The notes beneath the pieces were generated by a model. It was not told the origin of the DNA. It worked only from the letters and a program-made list of their open reading frames with translations, and ran no database searches. 45,756 nt of DNA from a virus, in IMG/VR virus record IMGVR_UViG_3300005253_000535, positions 1 through 45,756 of that record. One strand, 5' to 3'. Below, piece after piece: positions 5,805-45,002 of this stretch (position 1 is the stretch's first letter; each line of letters starts with the position of its first letter). The position numbers and the translations under genes are program-made.

Positions 5805-6203
5805 ATGTTCGCCACCATCATCAGCCGCGCCCTGTTCTACTACGCCTTCCATGCCGGCGCCGCCGACCCGGAGGACGTAGCCCAGGACGTCATCGTCAAC
5901 CTGCTCAAGCGCCCGCACTGGGTCAGGAGCAACATGACTAGCTATCTGCGGGTGGCGGCTCGTAATCAGATATACGGCCAGCAGCGAACCGAGAGCGCGC
6001 CTTCGTCCCTCAACGTCGACTGGTTGCCAGCGCCAGACCCGCCGGATGATGACGCGGTCGACGCTGTCAGCCGCCTGACGGGAGAGTACCCCGATTTGGT
6101 GGCTTGGCTTATCGACTACTCAGAGAGGGCCAGCTACGGGGTGACGGATCGGGTGCGGGCTAGTCGAAGCCGGCGGAAGTTACGGGAGGTATTAGCGACA
6201 TGA
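5805..6203 (+). CDS. Sigma-70 region-2-like protein, 132 aa
   Basis: Residues 18-60 match sigma region 2: DPEDVAQDVIVNLLKR followed by TSYLRVAARNQIYGQQR, the helix pair that binds core RNA polymerase and the -10 element. The rest is short, with a Pro/Asp linker and a basic C-terminal helix (SRSRRKLREVLAT) in place of a full region 4. It could be a phage sigma factor that redirects host polymerase, or a DNA-binding protein that reuses the fold. Its stop overlaps the nuclease start. It lies outside the late operon, as expected for a regulator made early. Confidence 0.6.
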   Translation: MFATIISRALFYYAFHAGAADPEDVAQDVIVNLLKRPHWVRSNMTSYLRVAARNQIYGQQRTESAPSSLNVDWLPAPDPPDDDAVDAVSRLTGEYPDLVAWLIDYSERASYGVTDRVRASRSRRKLREVLAT

Positions 6204-35500: not shown

Positions 35501-35692
35501 CTACTTCCTTCCTGTTCGGCGTGGCTTTTCCTCCCTAGCGACTACGTGCTGGCACGGGCCAGGCTTGTCGTCCCCGTACTCCACGACGGTCCAGGCGGGG
35601 CAGTTGGTGCAGCGGGCCGGCGCGTGTCCGGCCTTCCAGCGCATACCCTTCGCCCCGACCAGTTTCCAGTAGTGCTTACACTTCTTCCCCAT
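35501..35692 (-). CDS. Small zinc-binding-like protein, 63 aa
   Basis: First gene of the long minus-strand virion transcript. Basic with CKHYW, CTNCPAW and CQH, which could bind zinc. ATG at 35692 without a strong Shine-Dalgarno. The end may feed a -1 frameshift into the following frame (see 35181-35474). No family is recognised. Confidence 0.6.
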   Translation of the reverse strand: MGKKCKHYWKLVGAKGMRWKAGHAPARCTNCPAWTVVEYGDDKPGPCQHVVAREEKPRRTGRK

Positions 35693-35713
35693 CCGTATCT
35701 CACATAATTACGA

Positions 35714-35738
35714 GCCTCGCCCCCACGGCGGGCTCGGC
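35714..35738 (-). promoter_or_regulatory. Conserved start-region hairpin of the virion transcript
   Basis: On the minus strand GCC-GA-GCCC pairs with GGGC-GA-GGC around a 7-nt loop, leaving a symmetric GA/GA internal loop that can form two sheared G-A pairs. It begins 5 bp after the -10 box. The same hairpin with the same GA/GA loop follows the 41.05-kb promoter. If transcription begins at G35735 the RNA would start inside the 5' strand. Confidence 0.5.
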
Positions 35739-35742
35739 TAAT

Positions 35743-35781
35743 ATTGTACCGAGAACGCGTAAGGTTGTCAAGTTACGCGTA
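35743..35781 (-). promoter_or_regulatory. Operator-controlled late promoter of the virion operon
   Basis: On the minus strand TTGACA (35766-35771), 17 bp, TACAAT (35743-35748). Operators: AACGCGTA at 35754-35761 in the spacer and TACGCGTA at 35774-35781 just upstream, 20 bp apart. A third degenerate half (TGCGTA) is at 35787. The -35, operator, -10 and following hairpin all closely match those at 41.05 kb. Confidence 0.85.
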
Positions 35782-35843
35782 TGAAATGCGTAATTGTGTG
35801 CGCCAGGCTGAAGGATATTCAGCTTCCTGCACACAGAAAGGGC

Positions 35844-35868
35844 AAAAGGCCCCCTGGGGAGGGGGCCT
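35844..35868 (-). terminator. Rho-independent terminator of the small RNA
   Basis: A 9-bp perfect stem AGGCCCCCT / AGGGGGCCT with a CCCC loop (minus strand) runs straight into TTTTGCCCTTT. It closes the small RNA and also insulates the late promoter 70 bp downstream from upstream transcription. Confidence 0.85.
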
Positions 35869-35929
35869 CTGACGGACGGGGAGCGACTCGGGGGAGAGTC
35901 GCGTGTCGGGAGCGCGTAGGGCTCCGACT
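35844..35929 (-). ncRNA. Three-hairpin small RNA, about 86 nt
   Basis: Own promoter, three consecutive hairpins and a terminator, with no ORF. Hairpin 1: GTCGGAGC pairs with GCTCCCGAC with one bulged base (35904-35928). Hairpin 2: GCGACTC / GAGTCGC with a 6-nt loop (35882-35901). Hairpin 3 is the terminator. The unpaired links are short. It lies between the operon ending at 35986 and the late promoter. A regulatory antisense or protein-binding RNA is the natural guess; no known family is recognised. Confidence 0.7.
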
Positions 35930-35935
35930 GGTTCG

Positions 35936-35964
35936 ATGTTAGCAGATACTTATAGGGCTGTCAA
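35936..35964 (-). promoter_or_regulatory. Promoter of the small RNA, without operator
   Basis: On the minus strand TTGACA (35959-35964), 17 bp, TAACAT (35936-35941). The predicted start at about 35929 is right at the first hairpin. No TACGCGTA-like site is present, so it should be active in lysogeny as well as in lytic growth. Confidence 0.8.
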
Positions 35965-35985
35965 GGGGGGCGCTAATCGGGGGCA

Positions 35986-36180
35986 TTAGCCTGTGACCGC
36001 TTCGGCGTCTAAGCATTCCCTCGCCTCGTCGTCGGCACCCAGGTCCACGGCATCGCAGTAGGTCGAGTAGATCGCCCGGTCCAGCAGACGGATGCCGACC
36101 TCGTTCAGCTCGTCCCCCTTCTCACGGCGAGTTCTAATGAGGCGGTGGAGCCTGGCCAGGGCGTACTCGCTCGGAGTCAC
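35986..36180 (-). CDS. Small helical protein, 64 aa
   Basis: GTG start right after the previous TGA. Fully helical, charged (YALARLHRLIRTRREKGDELNEVGIRLLDRAIYS) with two cysteines. Second gene behind the tmRNA-like RNA. Could be a small DNA-binding or regulatory protein; no family is recognised. Confidence 0.65.
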   Translation of the reverse strand: MTPSEYALARLHRLIRTRREKGDELNEVGIRLLDRAIYSTYCDAVDLGADDEARECLDAEAVTG

Positions 36181-36183
36181 AGC

Positions 36184-36381
36184 TCATCCCCTGGGGTGCC
36201 TCAGATCGTGCGTCTCGTGGTAGTCGCACCCCTCTGCGGGACAGACGACGGAGACGCGCCCCTCATACTGGTCGCGGTCTACCCAGCCAGCCGACCCACA
36301 AGACGGGCAGCGGATATAGGCGTGCCGCTCGTCGCCCTTCAGTGGCCCGTAAACCACCTCTGGGGCTATTCCTGTAGTCAC
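36184..36381 (-). CDS. Zinc-ribbon protein, 65 aa
   Basis: GTG at 36381 with AAAGGAGG 6 nt upstream; this ribosome-binding site begins at the last base of the tmRNA-like RNA's CCA end. Cysteine pairs CPSC and CPAEGC, 21 residues apart, form a zinc ribbon of the transcription-factor type. It is probably transcribed from the tmRNA-like promoter, so the two may share regulation. Confidence 0.7.
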   Translation of the reverse strand: MTTGIAPEVVYGPLKGDERHAYIRCPSCGSAGWVDRDQYEGRVSVVCPAEGCDYHETHDLRHPRG

Positions 36382-36394
36382 TGCTTTCCTCCTT

Positions 36395-36481
36395 TGGTGG
36401 AGGCGGTCGGAGTTGAACCGACGTCTGCCAGAGCTGCGGGAGATGCCGCTTCTACTTCTCCGGCACGAACCCGTCGCCCCC
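36395..36481 (-). ncRNA. tmRNA-like / tRNA-like RNA, 87 nt, with G3-U70 acceptor pair
   Basis: On the minus strand the 5' end GGGGGCG pairs with CGCCTCC at the 3' end in all seven positions, with a G-U pair at position 3, then discriminator A and CCA. G3-U70 plus A73 is the alanine identity set shared by tRNA-Ala and tmRNA. The T-arm is GTCGG, TTCAACT, CCGAC. After the acceptor comes GACGGG, as near the 5' end of tmRNAs, then a hairpin GTGCCG/CGGCAT with a 12-nt loop. No anticodon arm with a U33 loop can be drawn, and no mRNA-like domain fits. A promoter lies directly upstream. Confidence 0.6.
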
Positions 36482-36489
36482 ACGCTCCC

Positions 36490-36519
36490 ATTATACGCGC
36501 GCCCCCCGCACATAGCCAA
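36490..36519 (-). promoter_or_regulatory. Promoter of the tmRNA-like RNA
   Basis: On the minus strand TTGGCT (36514-36519), 18 bp, a perfect TATAAT (36490-36495). The predicted start, 6-8 nt downstream, coincides with the first bases of the acceptor stem. No operator copy is present. Confidence 0.7.
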
Positions 36520-36880
36520 TGGGCCCCCGGGAACGCTCTCCTGGCCACAGGGGGAATTAGGAAGAGAGGGTGGCCAACCACACACTCCGCGACGGCTTCG
36601 AGCCCGCGTCCTCCTGGGGCTTTTCGCTCATCCGTGCTAGCCCGGCGACCGCCTGACAGCTAGACAAGCGGCCGGCCCCTAGATAGGGAACAGCGCGGGA
36701 TGGGCCCGGGCCAGGTACGAAGCGCGCCAAAGCTGGACGTCAAGCGGATCCCTTCCTTTTCTGAAGTGAGTCATAGTCTCAATAAGGGGAGCGCAGTGGG
36801 ATCACGCTCCGCTAGCTCTGTGACCTCGCTCCGGGGCGCTCCCGCCGGCTCCCGTGGCCGGGCTGCTCCTAGCCCACCAT
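36520..36880. other. Non-coding stretch without a convincing gene
   Basis: About 360 bp with no credible gene on either strand; the only open frame (plus, 36700-36882) is Ser/Arg-rich and lacks a ribosome-binding site. The stretch is GC-rich with several inverted repeats, for example GGAGCG/CGCTCC at 36788-36810. It may hold the replication origin, an upstream regulatory region, or another RNA; nothing identifies it further. Confidence 0.5.
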
Positions 36881-36883
36881 AGA

Positions 36884-36994
36884 TACGCGTTATACGTGGG
36901 GAGCAAACGCGTTGCCCATTCTATCGCCAAACGGCCTACGCGGGGTTGACACGTCATACGCGTGGGCCTAACATAGACTTGACGGTTACGCGTA
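36884..36994 (+). promoter_or_regulatory. Operator cluster and rightward early promoter
   Basis: TTGACA (36946-36951), 17 bp, TAACAT (36969-36974). Five operator-like sites: TACGCGTT 36884-36891, AACGCGTT 36906-36913, TACGCG 36937-36942, TACGCGTG 36957-36964 (in the spacer, 5 bp from the -35) and TACGCGTA 36987-36994 (downstream of the start). Spacings are 22, 31, 20 and 30 bp. This is the densest cluster in the genome and faces the long early operon. Confidence 0.8.
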
Positions 36995-37010
36995 GTAGGA
37001 GGGAACAGCG

Positions 37011-37259
37011 ATGGTCACAGAACTAGAGTGCAATGTGGACGGGTGCCGCTACCACGACGCCGACTCCATATTCTATGTCACGGTCGTTGACGGGGCGCGG
37101 GTCGGATTCCTGCTAGGTCCCTACGGCGACCATCAGACGGCGATAAACAACGTTGACCGTGGGCGTGGTCTAGCCAACCAGGCCGACCCCCGCGCCGCTT
37201 TCTATTCCTTCGGCACGTCATCCATCAAACGAGAACGTCAAACGGTGTTCGGTAGCTAG
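37011..37259 (+). CDS. Hypothetical early protein, 82 aa
   Basis: First gene behind the operator cluster; TAGGAGGGA before the ATG. The N-terminus has CNVDGCRYHD; the rest is beta-rich and soluble. Probably a host-takeover protein by position. No family is recognised. Confidence 0.7.
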   Translation: MVTELECNVDGCRYHDADSIFYVTVVDGARVGFLLGPYGDHQTAINNVDRGRGLANQADPRAAFYSFGTSSIKRERQTVFGS

Positions 37260-37271
37260 GAGGGATTGACC

Positions 37272-37403
37272 ATGACGGACAAGCCAGAGACAGCGAAGCC
37301 GGCCAAGCGGCCAGCGAGCCGTTACGCAGCCAAGGGTCGGCAGGCCATCGAAGACACGCATCCGCACCGACCGCCGGTTGCGTGGTGCTCCAAGTGCCAG
37401 TAG
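37272..37403 (+). CDS. Small basic protein, 43 aa, C-terminal CxxC
   Basis: ATG with TAGGAGGGA upstream. Lys/Pro/Ala-rich basic N-terminal half (KPETAKPAKRPASRYAAKGR) and a C-terminal WCSKCQ. It could bind nucleic acid. Ends 17 nt before the next gene. Confidence 0.6.
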   Translation: MTDKPETAKPAKRPASRYAAKGRQAIEDTHPHRPPVAWCSKCQ

Positions 37404-37420
37404 CCAGGAGGGAAGACACA

Positions 37421-37753
37421 ATGGGAACACGCTGCTTGACAGTGTTCAAGGAAGAGGACGGTACGGAGATCGCTGTGATGTACCGTCAGATGGACGGATA
37501 CCCCAGCGGCCACGGCCAAGAGCTAGCCGACTTCCTAGCTGGTAAGGCGCTCGTAAACGGCATCGGGGCCGATGATTCGAAGGACACGGCTTTCAACGGT
37601 ATGCATTGTCTAGCCGCGTCCGTGGTCGCCCACTTCAAGAAGGACCTCGGTTCAGTTTACCTCTACCCCGCAGGCACCCGTGACGTAGGCGAAGAGTACA
37701 CCTACACAGTTACGGGCAGAATGGGCGAGAAACCCACCATTAAGACGAAGTAA
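37421..37753 (+). CDS. Conserved hypothetical protein, 110 aa
   Basis: The N-terminus GTRCLTVFKEEDGTEIAVMY followed by RQMDGYPSGHGQELADFL is a pattern I have seen in uncharacterised phage and bacterial proteins of this size. Mixed alpha/beta, soluble. ATG with AGGAGGGA. Function unknown. Confidence 0.75.
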   Translation: MGTRCLTVFKEEDGTEIAVMYRQMDGYPSGHGQELADFLAGKALVNGIGADDSKDTAFNGMHCLAASVVAHFKKDLGSVYLYPAGTRDVGEEYTYTVTGRMGEKPTIKTK

Positions 37754-37841
37754 TCCTAGTCCCTCCAGCGTTGGCCCTAACGTCTTGCACCCCCTTGGCG
37801 TTGGGGCCGGCCCCGGACGGATTAGCAGGAGGGAAGACAGC

Positions 37842-38066
37842 ATGAAGGTTCAACGGATCGCACAGGTGACAGACGCCTACGTGCGCCACTATTCCGACAA
37901 CGGACAGACAACGGCCTACGTGGAGTGGTACGACCAGGACGGCGACGGCGGGCGCACGGAAGGCAACCTGTTCCCTTGTGAGCATGTTGTCTTAGGCGCC
38001 CACATGGCGGCGCTGTTCGCCCGCGCCAACCGCGAGGGCATCGCTATCAGAGGGGAGACGTGGTAG
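37842..38066 (+). CDS. Hypothetical protein, 74 aa
   Basis: AGGAGGGA before the ATG. Beta-rich N-terminal part (TTAYVEWYDQDGDGG) and a C-terminal helix (LGAHMAALFARANREG). The 88-bp gap before it contains the palindrome GGGGCCGGCCCC (37803-37814) without a T-run. No family is recognised. Confidence 0.65.
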   Translation: MKVQRIAQVTDAYVRHYSDNGQTTAYVEWYDQDGDGGRTEGNLFPCEHVVLGAHMAALFARANREGIAIRGETW

Positions 38067-38068
38067 CC

Positions 38069-38173
38069 ATGACAGCCGGCGAAGCATGGTTCGTAACCAT
38101 CGTCCTTACCCTGGCCCTGGTGCTGGGCATGGGAGCGGTGGAAGTGCTGAGTAACGCCCTGACGGGCGGATAG
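38069..38173 (+). CDS. Single-span membrane peptide, 34 aa
   Basis: Starts 2 nt after the previous stop. One transmembrane helix (WFVTIVLTLALVLGMGAVEVL) with short polar ends. A good ribosome-binding site (GGAGGGG) for the following gene overlaps its end. Function unknown. Confidence 0.5.
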   Translation: MTAGEAWFVTIVLTLALVLGMGAVEVLSNALTGG

Positions 38174-38187
38174 GAGGGGACAGAGAC

Positions 38188-38370
38188 ATGGAACGCAAAG
38201 CTAACGAGCCAGTAAGGGCCGACAGTTCCGACGACGACATTCGGGATCGCGCCCGTGAACTGTTTGGAATCGAGGGCGAGACTGAGATAGACACCGACGC
38301 CGAAGTCAGTCGCGGGGATGACGACGGGACCTACGTCCAGGCGTGGGTGTGGGTCGAGTTTGGAGCCTAG
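38188..38370 (+). CDS. Acidic hypothetical protein, 60 aa
   Basis: TAGGAGGGG before the ATG. Strongly acidic (SSDDDIRDRARELFGIEGETEIDTDAEVSRGDDD), aromatic C-terminus (AWVWVEF). Charge mimicry of DNA is conceivable for such early proteins, but nothing proves it. Confidence 0.6.
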   Translation: MERKANEPVRADSSDDDIRDRARELFGIEGETEIDTDAEVSRGDDDGTYVQAWVWVEFGA

Positions 38371-38374
38371 CACC

Positions 38375-38662
38375 ATGACTACCAGATACCAGAAGAGTCA
38401 GATCGAGGACACAGCCCGAATCCTGAAAACCATGTGGGAGTGCCATTGCAACAGCCCCCACGATCCAAATGGGCCGGAGTGTGCAGGTTGTCAGACGCGG
38501 GACGGCATGGTCAGTGCCTTCGCCGACCTCTTCGCCGCCGACAACCCTAAGCGATGCACTTTCCACGGCGATCATAACACCGGGTACAGCGTGGACTGTG
38601 AAATCACGGGCTTCGACCGTGAGCAATTCCTAGCAGCCTGCGGGCTGGAAAGCGAGGGATAG
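38375..38662 (+). CDS. Hypothetical protein, 95 aa, Cys/His-containing
   Basis: ATG 5 nt after the previous stop. Helical N-terminus, then CHCNSPHDPNGPECAGC, a likely zinc site, and a C-terminal CTFHGDHN. No family is recognised. Ends 8 nt before dnaN. Confidence 0.65.
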   Translation: MTTRYQKSQIEDTARILKTMWECHCNSPHDPNGPECAGCQTRDGMVSAFADLFAADNPKRCTFHGDHNTGYSVDCEITGFDREQFLAACGLESEG

Positions 38663-38669
38663 ATACCCC

Positions 38670-39809
38670 ATGAAGATTCGAATACTGTCCGAGAACCTGA
38701 CTGCCGCTGTCACCGAGGCAGCGCGGGCAACGGCCAAGCGGGGACACGTGCCCCAAGCCGAGAACGTCCTGCTAGAAACCGTAGAGGGTAGGTTACGTGT
38801 CACCGGCACCGACCTAGAGACGGCGATCGCTGTCTACTCCGGCGCCCAAGTCGAGGAAGAGGGGCGGGCGCTAGTCAAGCCGGGGATGCTGGCCCGTATG
38901 CTCGGCACGTTCGACGGGGCCGCTATCGACATCGAGCCTGACGGCGAGCATGGGCTGGCGCTGTCCTCAGACGGGCGCGCCTTCAAGCTGGACGGCATGG
39001 ACCCGGAGGACTACCCGCCTGTACCCGAGACGCCCGAACACCTAGCGGACATTGACCCGCTGATCCTGCGCCGGGCACTGGTCCGGGTGCTTGATTGTGT
39101 GGCTACGGATGGGCTAAGGCCTGTCCTGGGCGCTGTCAATTTCGCCGTGGCTGACACGTTGACGCTGGCTGCGGCTGATGGCTTCCGGCTGGGCGTGGTG
39201 GATACAGGCTGGAACGTTAGCCCGGACTTCCCTGAGATGAACGTGCCGGCGCGGACGTGCCGGGAACTGCTGCGCCTACTCCCGAAGAAGGCGAAGGATG
39301 CCGACGCCAGCGATCCCGTTCAGCTCCACGTCAAGAGGCGTGACGATGGCGTGCCTATCCAACTGCGCTTCGCTCTCAAACGCCAGGACGTGACGACGAT
39401 GCTGGTGCAAGGGACGTTCCCGAACTACACCCAGCTTATCCCAGCCACGCATGAGGCATCCGTCACCGTAGACACGCGGGCGCTACGCCGGGAACTACAG
39501 GCGGCGTCTGTCCTAGCTGCACAGTCTAGCGGGATCGTGCGGTTCAACTTCTCCCCGCCGGGCCGGTTCGAGATACACGCCCGCGCAGAGGAAGAGGGCA
39601 CATTCGAGGCCATGATACCGGCGAAGGTGGAGGGCGAGGGCAAGATCGCTCTCAACTGGGCCCACGTCGATACCTTCCTGAAGACTGTCGGCACCGACGC
39701 CGTAGAGCTTCGCATCACCGACCCAGCCCGACCGGGCCTGTTCCTGCCTGTGGGCGAAGAGGGCTACCAATTCGTCTGCATGCCGATGTTCGTCAGGTGG
39801 GACGACTAA
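38670..39809 (+). CDS. dnaN: DNA polymerase sliding clamp (beta subunit)
   Basis: 379 residues, full length for DnaN. All three clamp domains are visible: GTDLETAIAVYSG (50-60 region), FKLDGMDPEDYPPVPE ending domain 1, RPVLGAVNF and TLAAADGFRLG in domain 2, QGTFPNYTQLIP opening domain 3, and the C-terminal hydrophobic-pocket tail MPMFVRW. It encircles DNA and tethers the polymerase; phage-encoded bacterial-type clamps are uncommon. The partner is presumably the family A polymerase at 42648. The GAQVEEEG stretch and the tail remind me of Chloroflexota clamps, from memory only. Confidence 0.93.
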   Translation: MKIRILSENLTAAVTEAARATAKRGHVPQAENVLLETVEGRLRVTGTDLETAIAVYSGAQVEEEGRALVKPGMLARMLGTFDGAAIDIEPDGEHGLALSSDGRAFKLDGMDPEDYPPVPETPEHLADIDPLILRRALVRVLDCVATDGLRPVLGAVNFAVADTLTLAAADGFRLGVVDTGWNVSPDFPEMNVPARTCRELLRLLPKKAKDADASDPVQLHVKRRDDGVPIQLRFALKRQDVTTMLVQGTFPNYTQLIPATHEASVTVDTRALRRELQAASVLAAQSSGIVRFNFSPPGRFEIHARAEEEGTFEAMIPAKVEGEGKIALNWAHVDTFLKTVGTDAVELRITDPARPGLFLPVGEEGYQFVCMPMFVRWDD

Positions 39810-40039
39810 TGCCCTGGATACCCACGCCCAACGGTGGCCCCGGCTACACCTGTACTCACCCCGATTGCGGGTATGTCACGGACGGGGATCCGGCGGACAT
39901 CGGCCGGCACCGGCTGGAACACTTGGCGCAGGTGTTGGAACAGGGCGTCCCGCTCACCCCGCCCGTTGCCATCGAACAGGCGGAAGCGATACTGCGCGAG
40001 GACTTGGAGCGGGCGCGGAAGCTATGGTATCCGTCGTGA
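39809..40039 (+). CDS. Zinc-finger-like protein, 76 aa
   Basis: TAATG coupling to dnaN. The N-terminus reads YTCTHPDCGYVTDGDPADIGRHRLEHL, a CxxxxC...HxxxxH arrangement like a C2H2 finger; a helical C-terminus follows. Its coupling to the clamp gene suggests a replication accessory role. Confidence 0.7.
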   Translation: MPWIPTPNGGPGYTCTHPDCGYVTDGDPADIGRHRLEHLAQVLEQGVPLTPPVAIEQAEAILREDLERARKLWYPS

Positions 40040-40230
40040 GCTTCCACCTGCCCGACGATGCCATAACGACCTGCGACGGCTGCGGCGCCCACCGCCTGAG
40101 CCGCCGCTACCGGGGCCTGTGGCTCTGCCTGGCCGGGGCGTGGAAGTGCTGGCGACACCGCAAGGCCATCTACGCCAACCATCGGGACGACGAACGGCGC
40201 TCTCAGATCGACGAGAAGGCCCCTGTTTAG
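40024..40230 (+). CDS. Small Cys-containing protein, 68 aa
   Basis: The ATG at 40024 lies inside the end of the previous gene; a GTG at 40036 overlapping the stop is the alternative. CDGCGAHR and later C residues (LWLCLAG, WKCW) suggest a zinc site; basic overall. Confidence 0.55.
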   Translation: MVSVVSFHLPDDAITTCDGCGAHRLSRRYRGLWLCLAGAWKCWRHRKAIYANHRDDERRSQIDEKAPV

Positions 40231-40269
40231 GTTCACGCCGACCCCTCGCACCTTGAAAGGAGAGAGAGC

Positions 40270-40473
40270 ATGAGAGACATAGAGGAACGTGGTCTAGCCG
40301 TGTATGCCCGTGGCAGCAAGGTGAAGGGCACGACAACAGGTGGTGGGCATGTCTGCCCTATCGAAAGCTGTGGGGAGTGGTGCATTGGTGTCCGCTGGCC
40401 GGACGGAGAACTGACCTACCCATGCACGGGCGGGATGGTCATGCGCTCGGACGGCGCAAGGCAGATTGCCTAG
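40270..40473 (+). CDS. Hypothetical protein, 67 aa
   Basis: AGGAGAGAG before the ATG. Beta-rich with CPIESCGEWC and a later C; likely a small zinc-binding or disulfide-free beta protein. No family is recognised. Confidence 0.6.
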   Translation: MRDIEERGLAVYARGSKVKGTTTGGGHVCPIESCGEWCIGVRWPDGELTYPCTGGMVMRSDGARQIA

Positions 40474-40477
40474 GTTG

Positions 40478-40618
40478 ATGTCCGCTACTCTGATGCTGGC
40501 CTACGCCTTGACCATCGCTGCGCTGGCCGGCTCGACGGGGATAGACTGGGCCATCGTCCTCGCCCTCCCCCATCTCCTAGCCTACTTCTACCTAAAGGGG
40601 GGGCTAGATGCCCGCTGA
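40478..40618 (+). CDS. Two-helix membrane peptide, 46 aa
   Basis: ATG 4 nt after the previous stop. Two hydrophobic helices (MLAYALTIAALAG and WAIVLALPHLLAYFYL) separated by STGID. Overlaps the next ATG by 11 nt. A holin-like or host-membrane peptide; function unknown. Confidence 0.5.
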   Translation: MSATLMLAYALTIAALAGSTGIDWAIVLALPHLLAYFYLKGGLDAR

Positions 40619-41027
40619 CTCCTCCCCCTCAGCCCTCGCCCAGCTCGTCGTAAAGCAAGGGAAGACTGCTCACCCCGCATTGACGCCCACGCGGGGGCTG
40701 CTGGCGTTCAGGCGCTTGGAGAACTGGAGTCTCAACTACCTTGCCGACTCCTTCACGGGCATGCCCGAGAACTACAAGAGGGCGCCGAGCCTACCCTCCC
40801 GGATGAAGGCTAGCCTCCGTCGCATCGCTGCCCTAGCGCGGGCCAACCCCCGCGGTCGAGGAGAGGCGGGCCTCCCCCGCCTCGACGGGGTGCTGGTCCC
40901 GGCCGGCGACTGGAAGGCCGTGCTGGGCGGAATTGTAGTGCATACCCTCAAGGGACGGGACGGCTACGTCCTCGTGCTCGTCGAGGGAGAGCTAGACACC
41001 CGACGACCTCTGAGTATACGCGTGTGA
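40608..41027 (+). CDS. Hypothetical protein, 139 aa
   Basis: Last gene of this early operon. Basic in the middle (PSRMKASLRRIAALARANPRGRG) and beta-rich at the end (GYVLVLVEGELDTRRPLSIRV). Its last codons overlap an operator copy (41017-41024), so the next promoter is embedded in its 3' end. No family is recognised. Confidence 0.65.
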   Translation: MPADSSPSALAQLVVKQGKTAHPALTPTRGLLAFRRLENWSLNYLADSFTGMPENYKRAPSLPSRMKASLRRIAALARANPRGRGEAGLPRLDGVLVPAGDWKAVLGGIVVHTLKGRDGYVLVLVEGELDTRRPLSIRV

Positions 41028-41066
41028 TACGCGTCCCTTGACAACGTTCACGCGTAGGGTTACAAT
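41017..41066 (+). promoter_or_regulatory. Operator-controlled promoter, 41.05 kb
   Basis: TTGACA (41038-41043), 17 bp, TACAAT (41061-41066). Operators TACGCGTG (41017-41024), TACGCGTC (41028-41035) and CACGCGTA (41049-41056, in the spacer) have starts 11 and 21 bp apart. The -35 through the hairpin downstream is nearly identical to the late promoter at 35.75 kb. Confidence 0.85.
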
Positions 41067-41069
41067 ATT

Positions 41070-41093
41070 GCCCGAGCCCCCTTGGGCGAGGGC
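41070..41093 (+). promoter_or_regulatory. Conserved start-region hairpin of the 41.05-kb transcript
   Basis: GCCC-GA-GCCC pairs with GGGC-GA-GGGC around a CCTT loop, with the same GA/GA internal loop as at 35.72 kb. TATAATTATG follows the hairpin here and GTAATTATG in the other copy, so the similarity extends beyond the stem. Confidence 0.5.
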
Positions 41094-41100
41094 TATAATT

Positions 41101-41184
41101 ATGACGGATAGGGGAATGGAGCATCAAATCTGTAACGGCGGCGCACCGTCACGCGTCATTGTACGGGCCATCTCGGGAGACTGA
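41101..41184 (+). CDS. Possible 27-aa leader peptide
   Basis: ATG at 41101 right after the conserved hairpin, no Shine-Dalgarno, 28 codons, ending 3 nt before the next ATG. The frame contains an ACGCGT (41151-41156). It may be a leader peptide or only untranslated leader. Confidence 0.3.
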   Translation: MTDRGMEHQICNGGAPSRVIVRAISGD

Positions 41185-41187
41185 CTG

Positions 41188-41391
41188 ATGTGGTTCCCGT
41201 GTGCTTACTGTCCGGCACGACTCCGTCGGGGGGATCGGGGGAACCTAGAGCATGCCGCCCAGCACTTCGGCCTAGATGCCGTCGCGGTCTACGTCCACCG
41301 GGAGCTTGAGCGCAAGGGCATGAGCGAGCTAGACGCCCACCTTACCGTGCAGGCTTTTCTTTCGCCTCGAACGGGCCGCCCGGTCTCCTGA
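41188..41391 (+). CDS. Small zinc-knuckle protein, 67 aa
   Basis: Begins WFPCAYCPARLRRGDRGNLEHAAQHF, a CxxC...HxxxxH arrangement like a C2H2 finger, followed by a helix (AVAVYVHRELERKGMSELDAH). The 3' end overlaps the convergent minus gene by 50 nt. A DNA-binding regulator is possible. Confidence 0.65.
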   Translation: MWFPCAYCPARLRRGDRGNLEHAAQHFGLDAVAVYVHRELERKGMSELDAHLTVQAFLSPRTGRPVS

Positions 41392-41737
41392 GATGGTCGA
41401 TGGAATGAGGCTTACCATCAGCCCCCACGTACTTCCAGACCGGCCACATCGTCGTGTGGTAGCCCAGCACGATGTCACACATCCCGTTGCTGGACGGGGA
41501 CGGCCAGCGCTTCCCTTCTACCTCGATAGACTTGTCCTCGAAGAGGGCGCCCTCGACCTTGCGCCCCAGCTTCTTCGACATGAAGTAGACGGGCAATGGG
41601 AAGACTACGTTCCCGAGTGGCGCTGTCTTCCCGCTGAGCAGGTCGTCGAGGATGACCTGGAGGATGCGATCCTTGTCCCTCGCCATCGGCGCCTGTTGCG
41701 CCGCGCGTATCATGGTGAGTATGTATTCGTCCGCCAT
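41342..41737 (-). CDS. Hypothetical protein, 131 aa, lone minus-strand gene
   Basis: ATG at 41737 with AGGGAG 9 nt upstream; an earlier in-frame ATG at 41746 has the same AGGGAG directly abutting it and so is less likely. Mixed alpha/beta, no clear motif (ILQVILDDLLSGKTAPLGNVVFPLPVYF). It runs against the early operon, with its own promoter, so it may be expressed in another phase such as lysogeny. Confidence 0.65.
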   Translation of the reverse strand: MADEYILTMIRAAQQAPMARDKDRILQVILDDLLSGKTAPLGNVVFPLPVYFMSKKLGRKVEGALFEDKSIEVEGKRWPSPSSNGMCDIVLGYHTTMWPVWKYVGADGKPHSIDHLRRPGGPFEAKEKPAR

Positions 41738-41772
41738 TTCCCTCATCTCCCTCTAGTAACGGTTCCGCCCCT

Positions 41773-41832
41773 ATTCTCCCCCCGTATGGCGCATGTGTCA
41801 ACACCTATAACGCGTAAAGAACACGTTAATAT
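41773..41832. promoter_or_regulatory. Divergent promoter region with one operator
   Basis: Minus strand: TTGACA (41796-41801), 17 bp, GAGAAT (41773-41778), for the gene at 41737. Plus strand: a -10 TAATAT (41827-41832) exactly 6 nt before the ATG at 41839; its -35 is poor (CCTATA at 41804-41809). Operator AACGCGTA (41809-41816) lies between them. Confidence 0.6.
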
Positions 41833-41838
41833 CTTCTT

Positions 41839-42402
41839 ATGTTAACCTTCGTTCCGCCTTGGATACCGGACAATCCGCTTCTCGCCGTCGTTGGGCAGAG
41901 CCCGGGGCCTGTGGAGGCCCGACGCAGTCGCCCCTTCGTGGGGCCGGCGGGGGAACAGCAGCGGGCGTGGCTACGCGCGGTTAAACTGGATCCTGATGAG
42001 GACGTGATGTGGACGAATGTTCATGCGTATTTCCATAGCGATGCGCCCAACTACAAGCCGACGGCGAAGGAGGCACGAGAGGGCTACGACCGCGTGAGGG
42101 GGGAGATTGGAACCGCGCCCTCCGTCGCCTGCGTCCTGCTTGTCGGGGGGCCAGCGTCGCACATGGTCTTCCGTGGGAACATGGGCCAGATGCACGGGAG
42201 GCAAGCGGAGGTCGCGGGTGTGCCCGTGTTCAGCATGTACCATCCTTCGTTCTACATCCGCCAACACTCGTTCAAGAAGAGGGCGGAGATTGAGGGCCAG
42301 GTGATGGACGTGCTCGCCCGCGTCGTCGAGGTCATCAAGGGGAAGGCACCCGAGTTGGAGTTGCCCGAGCCGGAGTATGTCGAAAGCGTGACGATATGCT
42401 AG
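41839..42402 (+). CDS. Uracil-DNA glycosylase-like protein (family 4/5 type)
   Basis: 187 residues. The N-terminal motif GQSPGPVEARRSRPFVGPAG (about 19-38) matches the GExPGxxEDxxGxPFVGxAG signature, TNVHAYFHSDAPNYKPT matches the substrate-loop region, and MYHPSFYI gives the HPS motif. The four cysteines that hold the Fe-S cluster in family 4 are missing. Relatives remove uracil from DNA, or act in phages as replication or host-defence factors. Probably leaderless (see promoter). Confidence 0.85.
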   Translation: MLTFVPPWIPDNPLLAVVGQSPGPVEARRSRPFVGPAGEQQRAWLRAVKLDPDEDVMWTNVHAYFHSDAPNYKPTAKEAREGYDRVRGEIGTAPSVACVLLVGGPASHMVFRGNMGQMHGRQAEVAGVPVFSMYHPSFYIRQHSFKKRAEIEGQVMDVLARVVEVIKGKAPELELPEPEYVESVTIC

Positions 42403-42682: not shown

Positions 42683-45002
42683 CGTAGAGACCACGGGCGT
42701 CAAGCGGGAGGACACCGCCGACCCACGCCGAGCCTCTTTCGTGTGCGCTGCTGTGGCTCCTCACGGCATCGTCACTTTCAACCCCCCTGACGTAAGGCCG
42801 GGGGCTAGCGTGACGGTCCATAACATGCCCTACGACGCCGTAGTCCTCGATCGCTGGGATGCCAACTGGGATGACACGAAGATTCTCGCCCACATCGGGG
42901 GACACCCGGATACCACGCTGAAGGGGCTGCAAACGAGGCTGCTGGGCCGGCCCGCTCTCCACCACGACGAGGCTGAGGAGAGGGGGCAGGTCCCCGAGTA
43001 CAACCTGTACGACGCCATCAACACCTGGGATCTCCGCCCCGTCCTCTACGATGGGCTGAGGCCCGAGACACGCAGGCTCTACGACACCCTTGAGAGGCCG
43101 CTGCTACCCCTGTGGGCCAAGATGACGATGGAGGGGTGCCTTGCTCTGGGAACCAAAATACTCAAGGCTAACCTCTCTTGGCAGGAGATTCAAGATGTCG
43201 AGGTCGGCGACGAGGTAGTCGGGTTCGATGAGTTCCAGCAGAAGGGCGAACGCTATCGTAAACTGCGCCGCTCTCGTGTGCTTGCTGTAACACCAAGCAT
43301 TGCGGAGTGCTTCGAGGTCGTCACCGATAGGGGAACCGTTACGTGTACCAGCAACCACCGCTGGCTGATTACCGACAGTCACCCGGCGGACCGCCTTTGG
43401 CGGCGCACCGACCAACTGAAGCTAGGACACTACTTGCGCTGGTTGTCCCCGCCGACAGCGCCCCGCACGGACTGGACTGCTGGATACCTTGCCGGGGCTT
43501 TCGACGGAGAAGGCTGTGCTGCACCGTCCATTATCGTGTTTACACAACGCATCAATCCAATGCTAGACCTCGTCCTGGCGGCGCTGCACGAGGAGAACTT
43601 CCGTGTTCGCGCTGTTCAACGCCTGCGTAAGCGCGACGACACCGTGGGGGTATGGGTTAAGGGCGGACTGCCCGAGCAAATCCGGTTCTTTGCCCGCTTC
43701 CGTCCCCAACGCCTGCGTATACCGTGGGAGGGCATGGCTGGTGGTCGGACAGGTACTCGTGCCCGAGTTATCGCAATACGGCCACTGGGCCGACTGCCTG
43801 TGTGGGACCTGACTACGACAACTGCGACATTCATAGCTGCGGGGTTCTATTCCCATAACAGCTTCAACCTCGACAAGCCCGCACTCCAAGCCTACAGGAC
43901 GGCACTGGCTGAGGATACGGAGGGGGTGCTGACTAAGGCTGAGGCCCTGCTACCGCGGGGCCGAGTCGTCTCCCGCTGTAAGAAGTGCGAGCTGCTACGT
44001 GAGCGGATGGAGACGGGGCAGAGGTGCGAGGACGGGAAGAACCACTCGTGGGATACCAAGTTCGAGGCCGACCTGGCCCTCAACCTTAACTCGCCCGAGC
44101 AGCTCCTTGCGGCGTTCACCGACATGGGCCTGGGCGTCAAGGATACGGGGGTCGACACGATAAGGCTCGTCGCCCACCGGCACCCGGGAGTCCGCGCCCT
44201 TCTCGACTATCGCACCCTGCACAAGGAACTGTCCACCTACGTCGAGCCGTTCCTCCGCATTGCTGAGAGTGGGCGGAGGCTCGGCGCCGTCTGGCGGCCG
44301 ACCGGGGCCTGGACGGGGCGTGTCTCATCCGCATACCCCAACCTCCAGAACATCCCCGCAGACCTGTGGCGGTTCTTCCTGCCTCCCTTCGTCGTCGCCG
44401 ACAACGCCCAGCTAGAGATCCGCGTCGCTGCTCACATCAGCCAGGATCCCCAGTTGATGGCTGCCTGCCAGGGCGACATCCATGCTGAGATGCAGATACT
44501 CTATGGCCTGCCGGCGGGCAGTGAGGGTCGGCGCGCCACCAAGGTCGGGACGTTCGGCACCATGTACCTCGGTGGGCCAGCAGTCATGCTCCAGAAGGCG
44601 CAAGAGTATGGCGTGCCGATGACCTGGAAGGATGCAGAGCGTCTGCAAGGGGTCGTCATGGCTAGGATGCCCGACTACTTCCGCTGGGCCTGGAGTATCG
44701 CTGACGAGCGGGTCGTCGACGGCCTGTTCGGCCGCGTGCATCACATCCCCCTCGGCATGGACGAGGGGCACATGGGTCGGGAGGCTGTCAACGCCCCCAT
44801 CCAGGGGGGTGCCGCGGACATCTGCAAGTTCCAGATGTTGGCCCTGCATCGGGCTGGCTACAAGGTCGTCGCCCAAGTGCATGACTCCGTCGTCGTGGAG
44901 GTGGGGGAGAGCGACCTGGCGGATGCACGGGTGGAGGTGCCACGTATAATGGAGGGGGCTGCGCCAGAGTTGGACGTGCCTATCAAGGTGGAGGCGAAAT
45001 GA
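42648..45002 (+). CDS. polA: Family A DNA polymerase with an in-frame intein
   Basis: 784-residue precursor; 543 residues after splicing. Residues 10-135 are a short 3'-5' exonuclease domain with LDVETTG (Exo I) and VHNMPYDAVVLDRW (Exo II). The polymerase part has GAWTGRVSSAYPNLQNIP, motif A ADNAQLEIR, motif B GRRATKVGTFGTMYLG (the residue aligned with E. coli Phe762 is Phe) and motif C QVHDSVVVEV. It likely replicates the genome with the phage clamp and the RecA-fold helicase. GTG start. The intein is listed separately. Confidence 0.93.
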   Translation: MAYTLDSPCALDVETTGVKREDTADPRRASFVCAAVAPHGIVTFNPPDVRPGASVTVHNMPYDAVVLDRWDANWDDTKILAHIGGHPDTTLKGLQTRLLGRPALHHDEAEERGQVPEYNLYDAINTWDLRPVLYDGLRPETRRLYDTLERPLLPLWAKMTMEGCLALGTKILKANLSWQEIQDVEVGDEVVGFDEFQQKGERYRKLRRSRVLAVTPSIAECFEVVTDRGTVTCTSNHRWLITDSHPADRLWRRTDQLKLGHYLRWLSPPTAPRTDWTAGYLAGAFDGEGCAAPSIIVFTQRINPMLDLVLAALHEENFRVRAVQRLRKRDDTVGVWVKGGLPEQIRFFARFRPQRLRIPWEGMAGGRTGTRARVIAIRPLGRLPVWDLTTTTATFIAAGFYSHNSFNLDKPALQAYRTALAEDTEGVLTKAEALLPRGRVVSRCKKCELLRERMETGQRCEDGKNHSWDTKFEADLALNLNSPEQLLAAFTDMGLGVKDTGVDTIRLVAHRHPGVRALLDYRTLHKELSTYVEPFLRIAESGRRLGAVWRPTGAWTGRVSSAYPNLQNIPADLWRFFLPPFVVADNAQLEIRVAAHISQDPQLMAACQGDIHAEMQILYGLPAGSEGRRATKVGTFGTMYLGGPAVMLQKAQEYGVPMTWKDAERLQGVVMARMPDYFRWAWSIADERVVDGLFGRVHHIPLGMDEGHMGREAVNAPIQGGAADICKFQMLALHRAGYKVVAQVHDSVVVEVGESDLADARVEVPRIMEGAAPELDVPIKVEAK
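43137..43859 (+). mobile_element. Intein with LAGLIDADG-type motif in the polymerase
   Basis: 241 residues (164-404 of the precursor). Block A starts CLALGTKIL; block B is DRGTVTCTSNHRWL; the C-terminal blocks are VWDLTTTTATFIAAGFYSHN, and the next residue is Ser (+1 nucleophile). One LAGLIDADG motif, YLAGAFDGEGC, is visible, so the endonuclease is a single-motif type or is decaying. The insertion sits in the MTMEG | SFNLD sequence between exonuclease and polymerase domains, not at an active-site motif. Confidence 0.93.

Follow-up and report, generated by a model that had tools for sequence, protein, structure and literature searches.

The window analysed here is a virus record of 45,756 bp whose two ends overlap by 121 bp, a pattern shown by phage genomes that are circular or circularly permuted. 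Its genes code for a family A DNA polymerase, a beta clamp, a UDG-like protein, Cas4-like and Rad52-like proteins, an amidase and a major head protein. Two homologous modules of ~100 bp were found on opposite strands (Table 1). Each is built of three TACGCGTA-like operators, a TTGACA-17-TACAAT promoter, an inverted repeat that starts 4 nt behind the -10 element, and TAATTATG. The initial annotation had placed two such modules here, with shared -35, spacer operator, -10, hairpin and TAATTATG, and the sequence was as described.

Table 1. Features of the two modules and the first ORF behind the minus module. Positions refer to the window.
Feature	Position	Strand	Remark
Minus module	35703-35792	-	
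Operator-like site	35785-35792	-	degenerate, 2 mismatches
Operator-like site	35774-35781	-	exact TACGCGTA, upstream of -35
Operator-like site	35754-35761	-	in promoter spacer
Promoter TTGACA-17-TACAAT	35743-35771	-	predicted; 11/12 consensus positions
-35 TTGACA	35771-35766	-	
-10 TACAAT	35748-35743	-	
Inverted repeat AGCC-GA-GCCC-(GCCGTGG)-GGGC-GA-GGCT	35713-35739	-	expected +1 near 35735
Conserved TAATTATG	35703-35710	-	its ATG runs straight into TGA
First ORF behind minus module	35501-35692	-	63 aa; starts at next ATG (35692)
Plus module	41017-41103	+	
Operator-like site	41017-41024	+	one mismatch
Operator-like site	41028-41035	+	one mismatch
Operator-like site	41049-41056	+	one mismatch; in promoter spacer
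Promoter TTGACA-17-TACAAT	41038-41066	+	predicted; 11/12 consensus positions
-35 TTGACA	41038-41043	+	
-10 TACAAT	41061-41066	+	
Inverted repeat GCCC-GA-GCCC-(CCTT)-GGGC-GA-GGGC	41070-41093	+	expected +1 near 41074
Conserved TAATTATG	41096-41103	+	27-codon ORF (41101-41184) possible from its ATG

Within 34.5-42.5 kb, no other sigma-70-type promoter reached 11 of the 12 consensus positions. The parts of the modules behind the -10 aligned with a score of 35, against a mean of 11.7 (sd 2.4, maximum 25) in 2000 shuffles. This bears out the proposal that paired homologous modules head two opposite transcripts; the homology is wider than had been noted, spanning ~100 bp with the upstream operators included. 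Judged by alignment, the modules are true homologues, diverged copies of one regulatory cassette.

The TACGCGTA palindrome occurs in 7 copies genome-wide, compared with 0.25-0.42 expected. The three operator-like sites of each module, an arrangement absent from the initial annotation, are spaced 20-21 and 11 bp. Similar sites recur, mostly paired, at candidate promoters near 0.34, 22.1, 35.2, 37.0 and 45.1 kb, and a single one is present at the candidate promoter at 41.8 kb; at most candidate promoters the spacing is 20-22 or 11 bp. Repeated palindromic operators, placed on promoters with helical spacing, are what a repressor-operated promoter should display, and TACGCGTA is probably a genome-wide operator and the putative target of a repressor. 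This site sequence is not known from other phages. No recognised repressor was found among the ORFs scanned, which are a subset of all ORFs; a ParB-like HTH protein (420-1298, +) sits behind one operator pair. The inverted repeat was present at only two of the operator-bearing candidate promoters, those of the twin modules.

A hairpin of the form 4bp-GA-4bp occurs in the window at the two modules only. In the other sequence scanned (1.33 Mb in all, both strands), only two unrelated instances were found, neither behind a promoter. In an ungapped alignment, the two copies of the repeat differ at two positions of the 5' arm and at four contiguous 3' positions, and opposite each 5' change, in the lower stem, stands an exactly compensating 3' change (A-T vs G-C and G-C vs C-G). 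Despite divergence in the loop and flanks, the copies retain all eight pairs and both GA doublets. The simulated chance of restoring all eight pairs ranged from p 0.002 (scattered changes) to p 0.007 (a run of four), values that depend on the ungapped alignment of one pair of copies, for which a gapped alignment is also possible. Tandem GA pairs are favoured in a CGAG/CGAG context. The arms are separated by 4 nt in the plus copy and by 7 nt in the minus copy, and such unequal spacing would be easier for a hairpin to accommodate than for a rigid dimer site. An Rfam search at the module site gave no match.

The best predicted fold of the minus copy uses another register (CGAGCC/GGCTCG with CGCC/GGCG) at -19.9 kcal/mol, 4 kcal/mol better than its GA/GA form (-15.9 kcal/mol). 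Thus, GA/GA is the predicted minimum in the plus copy only, and the GA/GA stem-loop that had been assigned to both copies is present in both as sequence but only in one as the minimum-energy fold. The claim of selection on structure is likewise upheld in part: the two compensatory changes and the retention of pairs and GA doublets speak for it, whereas the register preferred by the minus copy does not.

RNA polymerase preferentially starts 7 bp behind the -10, and rarely does so >1 bp upstream or >2 bp downstream of this position (PMC5730371). By this rule, we infer that +1 of each copy lies at or adjoins the G located 8 nt behind the -10. The lower stem has its 5' arm at positions 4-7 behind the -10, so a canonical start would leave this arm upstream and outside the RNA. 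This agrees with the earlier remark that the hairpin is so near the -10 that part of it may not be transcribed. When folding was read from nt 4, it was strong at only 2 of 11 candidate promoters, namely the twin modules (z -3.2 and -3.1). For the minus leader, a canonical start is predicted to give a 5'-terminal stem (-18.2 kcal/mol, z -3.0) in which the 5' nucleotide is paired, with the hairpin no more than 1 nt from the expected 5' end of the mRNA. The plus leader folds weakly from its canonical start (-8.4 kcal/mol), and its 75-nt fold is less stable than every shuffle of it (z +2.0). A complete plus hairpin would require either a start 3-4 nt earlier than usual or read-in from the promoter at 36946; no canonical terminator was found between 36946 and the plus module.

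The idea that TAATTATG is a shared gene start did not hold for the minus module, where the reading frame closes at once and the 63-aa ORF opens at a separate ATG. This ORF has Cys/His pairs suggestive of a zinc-binding protein, and no family match. In the plus module, the 27-codon ORF stops 3 nt before a 67-aa ORF. GAGG is found inside the 3' arm of the hairpin, 9 nt ahead of the TAATTATG ATG, and the ATGs nearest the hairpins are without the well-placed AGGAGG-like sites that most other listed genes have. Hairpin control of translation is therefore possible, and a putative control of the start, at the level of translation or of the 5' end, may be assigned to the hairpin.

Other features were observed in the window. 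An 87-nt stretch at 36395-36481 (-) matched the whole Rfam tmRNA model at 48.2 bits, above the gathering score, in one search and at 39.6 bits in another. It has a tRNA-like domain with CCACCA, only ~20 nt where the mRNA-like part belongs, and a TTGGCT-18-TATAAT promoter just upstream; ARAGORN made no call. It is possibly a tagless tmRNA-like decoy. At 35838-35964 (-), a TTGACA-17-TAACAT promoter with TG ahead of the -10 is followed by a short, strongly folded stretch (-45.5 kcal/mol, z -5.9), in which two predicted hairpins precede a GC-rich terminator-like stem with TTTT; this is a candidate phage small RNA. A 134-aa ORF (41342-41801, -), convergent with the plus module, has its own operator-flanked promoter (41801-41773) and no PHROGs family match, and is a candidate regulator. 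At 41813-41841 (+), the start of the UDG-like gene (41839) lacks a Shine-Dalgarno site and has TAATAT 6 nt before the ATG; the transcript is possibly leaderless. The DNA polymerase ORF contains an intein-like insertion (43140-43870, +), whose Hom_end_hint match is weak and falls short of the curated cut-off. A 132-aa ORF at 5805-6203 (+) showed a weak match to Sigma70 region 2 (E 0.0013, below cut-off) and is a possible phage sigma-like protein.

The source is an unclassified, orphan phage. In a polymerase alignment, relatives showed only 27-33% identity. Blastn gave no DNA match for 35.7-42.4 kb in the phage collection, none for the plus module in phages and none for the minus module in plasmids, and no relative was found with DnaN and TerL peptides in viral contigs or with portal peptides in genome contigs. 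Viral contig L270 (9825-10125) shares only ~300 bp around the start of the head protein (88% identity) and is unrelated outside it, which points to recombination or chimeric assembly. Motif scans of viral contigs returned no match for the -10 plus hairpin start or for the hairpin plus TAATTATG. Among the 121 matches listed for the hairpin core alone, none had the module, and the best upstream promoter-like score was 9/12. The operator-promoter pattern had 62 evaluable instances in viral and genome contigs, none with this hairpin. No phage relative holding the module was found in these searches.

These findings give good support to the cassette as a real unit: an operator-controlled promoter, present in two copies, whose start site is spanned by a conserved inverted repeat. 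The role of the repeat, unlike the cassette, is putative. Our best reading, which we hold tentatively at a probability of about 45%, is a repressor-controlled promoter module present in duplicate, in which the repeat most likely serves as a 5'-leader hairpin. The minus module would head a leftward transcript towards the structural genes, and the plus module one that runs rightward to the genes for the uracil-DNA glycosylase-like protein and DNA polymerase. The TACGCGTA palindromes in the spacer, and those lying one or two helical turns upstream, would be bound by a phage regulator (probably a repressor dimer) that stops RNA polymerase. Once the regulator is relieved, the near-consensus housekeeping-sigma promoter would fire. 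The hairpin, if it acts as RNA, would then hide the 5' end and/or control the adjoining weak ribosome-binding region, with the GAGG in its 3' arm. We do not propose an antiterminator role.

The leader hairpin is favoured by the ~100 bp of homology and the restriction of the hairpin to these two sites in the window, by the enrichment and regular spacing of TACGCGTA, by the compensatory changes and unequal arm spacing, and by strong folding from nt 4 at the twin modules only. The paired 5' nucleotide of the minus leader also favours it, since 5' stems hinder RppH and RNase E (PMC3997798). Several results weigh against it: the canonical +1 excludes the 5' arm of the lower stem and leaves the plus leader weak, the minus copy favours a different register, the compensation comes from one pair of copies, and the searches found neither relatives nor, among the ORFs scanned, a repressor. 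If +1 is canonical, the 5' arm falls in the discriminator, and the conservation crosses a start from which the plus RNA folds weakly. Such a position would suit a repeat that acts as DNA, either as a site for a phage or host regulator at about -4 to +20, or simply as a GC-rich stretch (discriminator plus initially transcribed sequence) by which promoter opening and escape are tuned. The ESAS repeats of cluster K mycobacteriophages were thought likelier to be protein sites than hairpins (PMC3203893). However, the arm spacing differs by 3 bp, the facing GA doublets make the DNA palindrome imperfect and yet are kept, and strand pairing explains the compensatory changes better; we regard a role as DNA, in either form, as somewhat unlikely. 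It is distinctly unlikely that the repeat is a passenger of the duplication of a module selected for its operators and promoter only, the copies being not very old. Homology over the whole module and the different predicted folds would be expected of a passenger, and the searches found no relatives that could show long conservation; however, eight pairs and both GA doublets have persisted while the loop and flanks diverged, an outcome improbable by chance.

Least probable, and extremely so, is the put-like antitermination RNA serving both arms that the initial annotation had suggested. The put RNAs of HK022 are ~70 nt long with two stem-loops and lie within the transcript, putL being transcribed from about +2 (PMC9378689). 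As with putL/putR, two homologous structured elements lie near the promoters of two opposite transcripts, and the RNA would be well folded if transcription began unusually early. However, in place of an RNA of ~70 nt with two adjacent stem-loops, each module has one inverted repeat of 24-27 nt, part of which is probably untranscribed, and no strong second stem was found in the next 50 nt or in the first 75 nt of the leaders. Put RNA acts through the zinc-binding domain of the RNA polymerase beta' subunit and lets terminators be read through. When both strands were scanned for intrinsic terminators of canonical form (stem ≥6, ≥5 T in 8; weaker or Rho-dependent terminators would escape the scan), none was found, and no target for put-like readthrough is therefore visible. 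The failure to match Rfam also counts against such an RNA. Very unlikely, too, is a new type of RNA element at the start site, in which a short hairpin centred on a conserved tandem GA/GA forms at the extreme 5' end of two main phage transcripts; if real, it would act in cis to modify either RNA polymerase or the ribosome, and would coordinate both arms. Under the preferred reading of a leader hairpin, the locus suggests how an orphan phage could run two opposite transcription units via one duplicated operator-promoter-leader cassette. It is also a compact case of an inverted repeat straddling a transcription start, in which DNA- and RNA-level roles are separable by simple mutants.

Multi-operator repressor control of phage early promoters is known from lambda OL/OR and from the L5 repressor and its stoperators. 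The present sites resemble these in that several palindromes with helical spacing lie around the -35 and in the spacer, at promoters genome-wide; unlike them, they are known from sequence and have no recognised repressor partner among the ORFs scanned. mRNAs of the ompA type carry 5'-terminal stabilising stem-loops. The minus copy is like these in the position of its hairpin, whereas the plus copy is weakly folded from the canonical start, and a stabilising effect is putative here.

Cluster K mycobacteriophages contain repeated ESAS modules, in which SigA-like promoters and inverted repeats are tied to start-associated sequences (SAS), and the SAS is a 13-bp GGGATAGGAGCCC located 3-9 bp before the start codon (PMC3203893, PMC11373665). 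By inspection, neither leader here contains the 13-bp GGGATAGGAGCCC or the 17-bp imperfect inverted repeat of cluster K consensus found upstream of SAS; a partial likeness, GGATAGG, precedes the second ATG of the plus copy, with less in the minus copy. The 10-bp arms of the repeat here (GCCCGAGCCC/GGGCGAGGGC) do not resemble 5'-TGTTGA, the half site given for two cluster K subclusters. There are 2 copies, compared with 7 or more in cluster K; the repeat crosses the transcript start and has arms that pair and covary, and the module also carries TACGCGTA operators as separate sites. Both systems, however, consist of phage modules that occur more than once and combine a SigA-like promoter (spacing of 17-18 bp), a variable-spacer inverted repeat and a conserved start-proximal motif. 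By this comparison, the module is unrelated to cluster K ESAS/SAS in sequence and is organised rather like it.
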